NCBI RefSeq assembly: GCF_038595005.1
Contig: NZ_CP151997.1
Span: forward strand, 2,046,001-2,110,000
Direction of reading: 5' to 3'
DNA length: 64,000 nt
DNA from: Chryseomicrobium sp. FSL W7-1435
GTDB lineage: Bacteria > Bacillota > Bacilli > Bacillales_A > Planococcaceae
Position 1 is the first letter of the stretch. Every line of letters begins with the position of its first letter. Shown here piece after piece: positions 33,970 to 36,687 of this stretch. Made by a program: the position numbers and the translations under genes. The notes beneath the pieces were generated by a model. It was not told the DNA's origin. It was given only the letters and a program-made list of their open reading frames with translations, and did no database searches.

Positions 33970-34548
33970 ATGATTACACTGACAGATATTATACGAGATG
34001 GTCATCCAACGCTTCGTAAAAAAGCAGATGAGCTCCACTTCCCACTTTCTGAGCAACAACTTCAACTGGCATCTGACTTAGTGACTTATGTAAAGATGAG
34101 TCAGGATCCAGTTCTTGCTGAAGAACACAATCTTCGACCAGGCATAGGACTTGCTGCTCCACAGGTAAATCATTCTGTGCGTATGTTTGCCCTGCATCTT
34201 ACAGAAAACGATGAATTACTAAGTCGTATTTTTATAAATCCAAAAATTAAAAGTCATTCCGTCGAGAAAACATACATCACAACTGGTGAAGGGTGTCTCT
34301 CTGTTGATGAAGATATTGAAGGTCTTGTTCCGCGTTATGCACGCATCTCGATCTCAGCCTTCGACGAGACGGGTAAAGAATTTTCTATGCGCTTAAAAGG
34401 ATTAAAAGGAATAGCGTTTCAACATGAGATGGATCATTTAAATGGAATTATGTTTTATGATCATATTAATCAAGAGAACCCTTATGCTTCCGTTCCAAAT
34501 TCAATACCTTACGAAAGGCATAGCGCAAAGGAAAACCTTGAAAGTTAA
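33970..34548 (+). CDS. def: Peptide deformylase
   Basis: A 192-residue metallohydrolase that removes the formyl group from nascent N-terminal Met. I start at ATG 33970 (GAAAGGA 8 bases upstream), giving MITLTDIIRDGHPTL. The three family motifs are GIGLAAPQ near 61-68, EGCLSVDE near 110 and QHEMDHLNG near 153-161 with both zinc/iron-binding His. It is divergent from ykyA. Length and insertion loop fit the type II deformylases of Gram-positives. Confidence 0.95.
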   Translation: MITLTDIIRDGHPTLRKKADELHFPLSEQQLQLASDLVTYVKMSQDPVLAEEHNLRPGIGLAAPQVNHSVRMFALHLTENDELLSRIFINPKIKSHSVEKTYITTGEGCLSVDEDIEGLVPRYARISISAFDETGKEFSMRLKGLKGIAFQHEMDHLNGIMFYDHINQENPYASVPNSIPYERHSAKENLES

Positions 34549-34553
34549 ATAGT

Positions 34554-34582
34554 TTGACTTTTCAGAATAAATACTTTACTAT
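34554..34582 (+). promoter_or_regulatory. Sigma-A-type promoter ahead of the 23-codon ORF
   Basis: TTGACT at 34554-34559 and TACTAT at 34577-34582 are separated by exactly 17 bases. The start codon of the small frame is 43 bases downstream. Confidence 0.7.
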
Positions 34583-34624
34583 ATTGTGATTTTCGCTTAT
34601 ACTTACTTATAAGGAGTGAGTATA

Positions 34625-34696
34625 ATGTTGAAACGTTTACGAAAAAAAATGCTCAAACGTCTCGGCGAAATTCTCGGCAAAAAAACTGTAGCGTAG
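34625..34696 (+). CDS. Cationic 23-residue peptide, unrecognised
   Basis: ATG 34625 stands 7 bases after AAGGAGTGA and opens a 23-codon frame with many Lys and Arg (MLKRLRKKMLKRLGEILGKK then TVA). Net charge is about +9 and hydrophobic residues recur every three to four positions, so it would form an amphipathic cationic helix. It has its own promoter and a strong terminator, forming an independent transcription unit between def and rpoY. I do not recognise a family. It could be a membrane-active peptide, a small regulatory protein or a nucleic-acid binding peptide; expression itself is not proven. Confidence 0.6.
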   Translation: MLKRLRKKMLKRLGEILGKKTVA

Positions 34697-34701
34697 ACTT
34701 T

Positions 34702-34740
34702 ACCCCTCTAAATATTTTTTAGAGGGGTTTTCTTTATTTT
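34702..34740 (+). terminator. Rho-independent terminator after the 23-codon ORF
   Basis: ACCCCTCTAAA and TTTAGAGGGGT form an 11-pair stem with a tiny loop, followed by a T-rich tract. It begins 6 bases after the small stop codon. Confidence 0.9.
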
Positions 34741-34807
34741 CCTATGTGCACATGCTAAGATAAAGAGAATTGCAATGAATCTGAACGTGAAAAAGGAGAA
34801 GAAAAAA

Positions 34808-35014
34808 ATGATTTACAAAGTATTGTATCAAGAAAACCCTACACAGGTACCCGTCCGCGAAAACACAAAGTGCATTTATATCGAGGCTGACTCAGAACGT
34901 GAAGTTCGTAAAAAATTGAGTAAACGCCCTATGATGATTGAATTCGTCCAATTGCTAGAAGGTGCGCACCTTGCGTACGAACAAGCTAGCGAAAACTATA
35001 AGGTTGAACAATAA
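34808..35014 (+). CDS. rpoY: RNA polymerase epsilon subunit RpoY
   Basis: A 68-residue protein (DUF1447 family; B. subtilis ykzG) with the typical [20 protein letters not shown] start and [17 protein letters not shown]. It binds core RNA polymerase. ATG 34808 is used because AAAAGGAG is 8 bases upstream; an earlier in-frame codon at 34775 lacks a site. It is followed after 5 bases by rnjA, the universal partner of this gene in Bacillales. Confidence 0.94.
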
Positions 35015-35019
35015 GACTT

Positions 35020-36687
35020 ATGAAATTTGTTCGGAATGATCAAACAGCTGTTTTCGCACTAGGCGGACTAGGTGAAATCGGTAAAAATACGTACGCAGTA
35101 CAATTTCAAGATGAAATAATTGTAATTGATGCAGGAATTAAGTTTCCTGAAGACGATTTACTAGGAATTGATTATGTCATTCCAGATTATACGTATCTTG
35201 TTCGAAACCAAGATAAAATTAAAGGATTGTTTATCACGCATGGTCATGAAGATCATATTGGTGGTATCCCCTACTTATTAAAGAAAGTAAACATGCCTGT
35301 CTACGGTGGTAAACTTGCGTTAGGTCTACTTCGCAAAAAACTTGAAGAGCATGGCATTTTACGTCAAACAAAAATGACCGAAATCTCTGAAGATGACGTT
35401 ATTAAGTTCAGAAAAACATCTATATCTTTCTATACAACAACACACAGTATTCCAGATGCGTATGGTCTTGTTGTTAAAACACCTTCAGGCAATATTGTAC
35501 ATACAGGTGATTTCAAATTTGACTTTACACCTGTAGGTGAGCCTGCAAACTTAACAAAAATGGCTGAAATCGGTAAAGAAGGCGTTCTCTGCTTACTTTC
35601 CGATTCGACAAATGCCGAAATTCCAAACTTCACGATGTCTGAACGTAAAGTTGGCGAAAGCATGGACAGTATTTTCCGCAAGGTTGATACTCGAATCATC
35701 TTCGCTACATTTGCATCCAACATACATCGACTTCAACAAGTTACCGATGCTGCTGTTCGTTATGGTCGTAAAATAGCTGTATTCGGAAGAAGCATGGACA
35801 ATGCAATTACGATCGGTCGTGAACTAGGCTATATTACAGCGCCTAAAGAAACATTTATCGACACGAATGCATTGAATCGCTTGCCAGCAAATGAAGTATT
35901 GATTTTGTGTACGGGTTCTCAAGGAGAGCCAATGGCTGCTCTTTCTCGAATTGCCAATGGTACACACCGTCAAATCCAGATCCAACCAGGTGACACTGTT
36001 ATCTTCTCGTCTTCTCCGATTCCAGGAAACCGAGCAAGTGTTAACCGTACGATCAATTTACTTTACCGAGCTGGAGCAGAAGTGATTCACGGCTCATTAA
36101 ATAATATTCATACTTCTGGACACGGTTCACAAGAAGAGCAGAAGTTAATGCTTCGTCTTATGAAACCAAAATTCTTTATGCCAATTCACGGGGAATACCG
36201 CATGTTGAAATTGCACAGTGAATTAGCTGTGGACTGTGATATCCCTAAAGAAAACACGTTTATCATGGAGAACGGAGATGTCCTAGCCCTGACTGCAGAT
36301 GATGCAACAGTTGCAGGCCGTGTGCCTTCAGGTGATGTTTACATCGATGGTAGCGGTATTGGCGATATTGGTAATATTGTTCTTCGCGATCGACGCGTAC
36401 TTTCTGAGGAAGGTTTAGTCATAGTCGTGTTAACAGTAGACTTAAAGAAGAAGCGCATCGTTTCTGGTCCTGATTTGATTTCTCGAGGATTTGTCTACAT
36501 GAGAGAATCCGGCATGATGATCAATGAAGCGCAACAAATGTTAAATCGCCACTTAAGAGGCCTGACGAAAGACAATCCTGAAGGATGGGATGACTTAAAG
36601 TCAGAAGTCATTAATGTTCTTGGTCCTCATCTTTATGATAAGACTAAGCGTAAACCAATGATCTTACCTGTAATTATGGAAGTGTAA
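35020..36687 (+). CDS. rnjA: Ribonuclease J1
   Basis: A 555-residue metallo-beta-lactamase/beta-CASP nuclease with 5'-3' exo- and endonuclease activity central to mRNA turnover and rRNA maturation. The zinc motif HGHEDHIGG is near 74-82, then HTGDFKFD near 161, the beta-CASP block ([15 protein letters not shown]) and [11 protein letters not shown] near 365, IHGEYRM near 388. The start has little ribosome binding site of its own and is probably coupled to rpoY. Neighbouring rpoY fixes it as J1 and not J2. Confidence 0.96.

Follow-up and report, generated by a model that had tools for sequence, protein, structure and literature searches.

A 23-codon gene upstream of rpoY very probably encodes an overlooked microprotein of the Bacilli

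The locus and its expression signals

The window analysed here is a stretch of 64,000 nucleotides from Chryseomicrobium sp. FSL W7-1435 (contig NZ_CP151997.1, positions 2,046,001 to 2,110,000), and all coordinates are counted within it on the forward strand. At 34625–34696 (+) it holds a frame of 23 codons that runs from ATG to a TAG stop and translates as MLKRLRKKMLKRLGEILGKKTVA, a peptide with nine Lys/Arg residues, one Glu, and a net charge of +8. A preliminary description of the locus had credited this frame with about ten Lys/Arg; the frame stands, while the basic count by composition is nine. Upstream lies a gene that, following that description, we take from its translation to be def-like (peptide deformylase; 33970–34548, +). 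Downstream are rpoY, which encodes the RNA polymerase epsilon subunit (34808–35014, +; Pfam PF07288, E 5.3e-28), and then a gene of 555 codons' worth of protein that its translation presumably marks as rnjA-like, of the RNase J1 type (35020–36687, +). The small gene is present in a single copy: a search of the window's own genome with the 206-base unit returns one match, as does a search with the peptide profile.

Two overlapping promoter-like pairs precede the frame, TTGACT-17-TACTAT (34554–34582, +) and TTTACT-17-TATACT (34575–34603, +), and they score equally in the window scan (9/12 each). The former is the sigma-A promoter with 17-base spacing chosen in the preliminary description; a promoter-like pair is indeed readable there, but it is the position of the latter that relatives conserve. 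Among 119 distinct related units, 108 hold a pair scoring at least 9/12, 91 of these with a 17-base spacer, and in these 108 the distance from the end of the −10 element to the ATG has a median of 22 bases (10th–90th percentile 21–63). Because the corresponding distance in the window is 21 bases for TTTACT-17-TATACT, this sigma-A-type pair is the likelier main promoter, and TTGACT-17-TACTAT is probably not. The sequence TTGACTTTTC (34554–34563), upstream of the promoter, is common to own-genus and g4 loci (L013–L015, L020); the g4 loci carry it but have other sequence where the second hexamer of TTGACT-17-TACTAT would lie, and it may mark a regulator site or an upstream promoter.

Translation signals recur as well. 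An extended Shine-Dalgarno site, AAGGAGTGA (34611–34619, +), leaves five bases before the ATG, and its AGGAG core leaves eight; of the 119 related units, 116 have an (A/G)GGAG motif no more than 22 bases ahead of the ATG, and 102 have the extended form. Beyond the frame, an intrinsic terminator of 11 pairs with a 5-base loop and a T-rich tail (34702–34728, +) begins its stem on the sixth base past the stop, confirming the 11-pair hairpin originally placed six bases after it. The T-rich tail also seems to overlap a −35-like element of a putative rpoY promoter (34729–34790), as it does at L191 and L192; this promoter reads TTTATT followed, in relatives, by an extended −10 of the ATGATAATAT type.

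Taken as a single sequence, the window offers little to distinguish such signals from chance, with four promoters found against 3.8 expected and two terminators against 0.9, the former no better than chance and the latter weakly above it. Across the related units, each set against one mononucleotide shuffle of itself, the signals are above chance. Promoter pairs of at least 9/12 are found in 108 of 119 units and in 31 shuffles, pairs of at least 10/12 in 84 units and 11 shuffles, and, no more than 45 bases past the stop, terminator stems of at least six pairs in 108 units and two shuffles, the stems varying in sequence while their pairing is kept. The frame thus stands between signals that relatives conserve, with a promoter-like pair and a ribosome site ahead of it and a terminator behind.

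Selection, distribution, and gene order

Selection on the frame was assessed in 119 distinct genes encoding 66 peptides. The third codon position is the most variable (mean entropy 0.69, 0.50, and 1.39 at positions 1, 2, and 3), while L5 and K20 are kept in all 119 genes, A23 in 118, and I22 in 112. The pN/pS ratio is 0.073 for pairs differing by up to 10% and rises to 0.090, 0.231, and 0.349 as divergence grows and synonymous sites saturate. In 59 disjoint nearest pairs it is 0.133, with 137 nonsynonymous differences as opposed to 320 under random substitution (sd 9, minimum 289.5, 500 runs). Synonymous divergence of the peptide gene tracks that of rpoY over the same pairs (0.253 vs 0.289, 0.668 vs 0.545, and 0.770 vs 0.710), so that no extra constraint at the RNA level is visible. 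The frame is under strong purifying selection as a protein, and it almost certainly is a coding gene for a 23-residue microprotein; an overlooked real protein very probably lies upstream of rpoY.

A profile built from 16 distinct own-family peptides (A1) matches 253 of 261 genomes of the family, none of them worse than E 1.7e-4. A cut-off of E 1 raises the count to 254, but the additional genome, G069 (E 0.472), is unconvincing and was discounted because no frame is present at its rpoY (L206). No convincing match was found in eight of the 261 genomes (G045, G079, G029, G043, G010, G028, G335, and G069), of which the G335 assembly consists of 640 contigs. The sample drawn for the order, which contains the same family only, yields 194 of 200 genomes with that cut-off of E 1, G069 being counted among them. 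Of 398 genomes of the class, 150 match A1 at E 1 or better, 39 of them own-family and those outside the family mostly weak; 17 genomes outside the family match at E < 0.001, all over the full length. A broader profile (A3), whose E-values are partly circular since it contains peptides from some of the genomes searched, finds 71 of the 398 at E < 0.001, namely the 39 own-family genomes and 32 in 13 other families, besides a weak match in f42. In a sample of the phylum, 10 of 299 genomes pass a cut-off of E 0.1. Five are Bacilli; the other five are weak, partial matches (E 0.028–0.094) and were taken as chance.

The same picture emerges when loci are gathered through rpoY. Found in 141 of 201 genomes, rpoY gave loci for its best 30, and 29 of these, the window's own among them, have a 23-residue homologue upstream, L024 being the one without. 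Among named relatives, the frame is intact in 74 of 80 loci, these being the best 80 of at least 575 by rpoY and therefore the nearest kin. Exactly 23 codons, by a strict pattern, are present in 71 of the 80, including one that starts with TTG (L157); L120 and L121 encode 25 residues, and L164 has a two-residue insertion. Genera with the frame include Planococcus, Sporosarcina, Psychrobacillus, Lysinibacillus, Geobacillus, Anoxybacillus, Heyndrickxia, Rossellomorea, Ectobacillus, and Domibacillus. Two loci deserve separate mention: L186 (Bacillus sp. P14.5), where a late frameshift from position 1718 gives 30 residues without the usual IA ending, by decay or sequencing error, and L133, a record titled Arthrobacter beigongshangensis REN13 whose rpoY, peptide, and def are Planococcaceae-like and which is probably mislabelled or contaminated.

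The B. subtilis group also appears to carry the gene. Primer sequences for B. subtilis ykzG are printed in PMC2994887, and the genomes of loci L092 and L098 contain exact matches to them, on which ground both genomes are taken to belong to that group. Their peptides are MLRRLRKKLRRQWGGMLRKKVIA (L092) and MLRRLRKKLKRQWGGMLRKKVIT (L098). L092 falls below both scan cut-offs (promoter 7/12, no perfect hairpin), and an imperfect hairpin can be read past its stop. Upstream of the gene both loci share CCGCATACTACTGCTATAA (about 620–640 in L092 and about 590–610 in L098, minus strand), which resembles the −10 elements that sporulation sigma factors use. At these two loci the promoter may differ from the sigma-A type seen elsewhere.

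At every positive locus examined, rpoY is the downstream neighbour. At all 22 distant positive loci (L077–L098) the gene shares its strand with rpoY and lies 113–453 bases upstream of it, it is likewise upstream and on the same strand at all eight f41, f42, and f55 loci (L198–L205), and frame and rpoY share one stretch at four further f14 loci; the loci were mostly fetched via rpoY or near it. The intervening distance is mostly between about 100 and 450 bases. In the six f41 loci the peptide is extended, and at L198, L200, and L203 this form precedes rpoY by a few tens of bases; the f42 locus (L205) encodes a weakly scoring form of 32 residues upstream of rpoY, where the f55 copy (L202) is also found. 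The upstream side is less stable. Placement between def and rpoY, given in the preliminary description, holds for the window but not as a general rule, as among 71 named loci the longest frame on the upstream side is divergent in 55 and points the same way as the gene in 16. Of the latter, the five inspected look like def; of the former, the four inspected are of the HAD type, one of them starting 936 bases away.

The peptide is dispensable, having no convincing match in eight of the 261 family genomes and no counterpart at 18 fetched rpoY loci (L099–L116), which come from genomes without a convincing peptide match and show no peptide frame; those of f9 and f26 we take to be Staphylococcus-like and of lactic-acid type. 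Within the 80 named loci the frame is missing at five: Planococcaceae bacterium Storch 2/2-2 (L139), Lysinibacillus alkalisoli (L191), and the Kurthia loci L182, L192, and L194. In the three Kurthia loci (about 1800–1960) promoter-like and terminator elements are kept while the Shine-Dalgarno site and frame are gone, and a short RNA may still be made from the unit; L. alkalisoli keeps a terminator-like hairpin. The kept elements may in part represent a promoter of rpoY with a T-rich −35-like element that overlaps the tail of the terminator. An inverted repeat, ATTAGC...GCTAAT, lies between the promoter-like and terminator elements of all three Kurthia loci.

It had been anticipated at the outset that a peptide would be recognised by conservation of the frame with synonymous changes, and a small RNA by decay of the frame with promoter and hairpin preserved. 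The comparison across relatives (253 of 261 family genomes; 74 of the named loci above) favours the peptide, and the second pattern was seen in one lineage, Kurthia. The idea that a short cationic amphipathic peptide has an autonomous gene of its own is supported, the frame being kept at the amino-acid level with synonymous change across many families of Bacilli.

No Pfam or NCBIfam family matches the peptides, whether three or 24 of them are searched. In PHROGs, three families of one member each were returned without a convincing match (best E 0.18); Rfam yields nothing at the gathering score over the whole 64-kb window; tblastn against phages and plasmids returns nothing at E up to 10, a search that is insensitive with 23 residues; and the PDB gives two partial matches at chance level (E 2.4 and 3.3). 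The 23-residue family is absent from the protein-family libraries searched. A description of the gene was not found in the literature covered, including PMC5521070, PMC8216469, PMC10433868, and PMC2994887, a weak negative given that subscription papers were sparsely represented. Conserved over much of the Bacilli, with the group around the model organism B. subtilis among them, the gene would add a protein family to a well-studied lineage. It adjoins genes at the core of transcription and RNA decay, and it illustrates how small a conserved gene may be and yet escape family libraries.

A putative amphipathic helix and competing roles

That the gene is coding is close to certain; its mechanism of action is inferred. 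Six peptides tested have a periodicity of 90–95 degrees per residue and net charges of +7 to +10. Their helical moment exceeds the shuffle mean in all six, and in four it is reached by about 1–6% of shuffles of the same composition; for the window peptide and the f8 peptide the proportions are 15.8% and 27.7%, neither of which is significant alone. The peptide is probably well expressed and would form a cationic amphipathic helix with Leu/Ile/Met/Trp at positions 2, 5, 9, 13, 16, and 17 on one face and Lys/Arg on the other. Most likely this helix acts inside the cell, either peripherally at the inner membrane face or bound to a partner that is itself associated with the membrane, and its nearly invariant end (K20, I22, and A23) would be read by a specific partner. 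The membrane-active or nucleic acid-binding character originally proposed is compatible with this sequence.

The best reading overall, which we hold tentatively and at slightly under even confidence, is that of a housekeeping microprotein that acts as an intracellular cationic amphipathic helix at the inner membrane face or on a membrane-associated partner. Its parts differ in strength. An intracellular amphipathic helix with a specific partner is probable, whereas the membrane surface as its main site is somewhat doubtful. The dispensability of the peptide and the non-significant helical moments of the window and f8 peptides weigh against this reading. Adjacency to rpoY and rnjA was counted against a membrane role because it argues for one in RNA metabolism or transcription; even so, the inner membrane face is slightly favoured over a tie to RNA polymerase-epsilon/RNase J1.

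The most serious competitor, though an unlikely one, is an accessory factor of the neighbouring RNA machinery, in which a basic helix would bind RNA polymerase, RNase J1, or RNA. It draws on the invariable position upstream of rpoY and on the same strand in the 22 distant and eight f41/f42/f55 loci, on the presence of rpoY in the same stretch at four more f14 loci, on the exchange of the upstream neighbour while rpoY stays, and on the operon-like arrangement in three of the six f41 loci (L198, L200, and L203), where the extended form closely precedes rpoY. However, the order of genes around rnjA may simply be stable, in which case the adjacency could reflect inheritance and not function, and the way in which the loci were fetched favours finding rpoY beside the gene; moreover, Kurthia and others keep rpoY although they lack the peptide, and plain RNA binding needs no long hydrophobic face. 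A more specific form, in which the RNA polymerase-epsilon/RNase J1 system has the peptide as a hitherto missed small component that binds and regulates the RNA polymerase or RNase J1 complex or tethers it to the membrane, and that is widespread in Bacillus-type Bacilli including the B. subtilis group, is more improbable still. The short peptides SR1P and SR7P of B. subtilis, which derive from dual-function RNAs and are tied to RNA degradation enzymes, offer a parallel as short peptides from a small transcript with a possible link to RNA decay. They have about 39 residues and another composition than the 23-residue peptide, whose gene, in addition, shows no constraint at the RNA level. A leader peptide, the translation of which would act on the terminator behind it and hence on rpoY-rnjA expression, would account for a short frame with a terminator directly after it and an operon downstream, but is very improbable given amino-acid conservation along the whole length, a spacing to rpoY of anything between about 100 and 450 bases, a promoter-like element readable before rpoY in Kurthia and other loci, and, at L198, L200, and L203, no room (as judged by eye) for the usual terminator before rpoY. 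Least probable of all is a regulatory small RNA with an incidental frame or a dual function: the unit is short, runs from promoter to terminator, and is kept without the frame in three Kurthia loci, but a pN/pS of about 0.1, a synonymous rate like that of rpoY, and the absence of an Rfam match at the gathering score all speak against it.

Charge, size, and amphipathicity would also suit an antimicrobial or toxic peptide that is secreted, for instance a leaderless bacteriocin or a type I toxin, and staphylococcal PSM or delta-haemolysin-like peptides and leaderless bacteriocins are likewise short amphipathic helices without a signal peptide. The 23-residue peptide is more strongly basic than these. 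Its gene occurs once in the window's genome and at the same stable chromosomal place across families rather than in a mobile or scattered manner, no transporter, export, or immunity gene was recognised among its neighbours in the window, tblastn gives no phage or plasmid match, and the protein evolves slowly, so such a role is highly unlikely. SpoVM, a 26-residue amphipathic helix protein of Bacillus, resembles the peptide in size class, cationic amphipathic helix, conservation in Bacilli, and possession of its own small gene, and is not known to share its sequence or locus. A sporulation protein acting in the manner of SpoVM gains from the fact that seven of the eight family genomes without the peptide are SpoIVA-negative, a weak trend, since by genus they represent three groups (g9, g8, and g6). 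Against it, promoters look sigma-A-like; four genomes with SpoIVA have no detected peptide (G139, G150, G180, and the 640-contig G335); and, unlike what would be expected of a SpoVM counterpart, the MLKRLRKKMLKRLGEILGKKTVA family persists in genomes without SpoIVA, namely 14 of its own family (G018, G050, G014, G032, G097, G011, G088, G058, G026, G009, G027, G044, G057, and G078). A role of this kind is accordingly given very little weight, and one in sporulation only was rejected on account of these 14 genomes.

SpoIVA was detected in 45 of 80 genomes searched, and Spo0A in 13 of 16, being absent in G010, G407, and G128. In the window's own genus, SpoIVA of G000 gives a near full-length domain match, and that of G001 (C1:393093-393353) looks broken into short fragments, one with a TGA; a recent loss of sporulation in G001 is possible.
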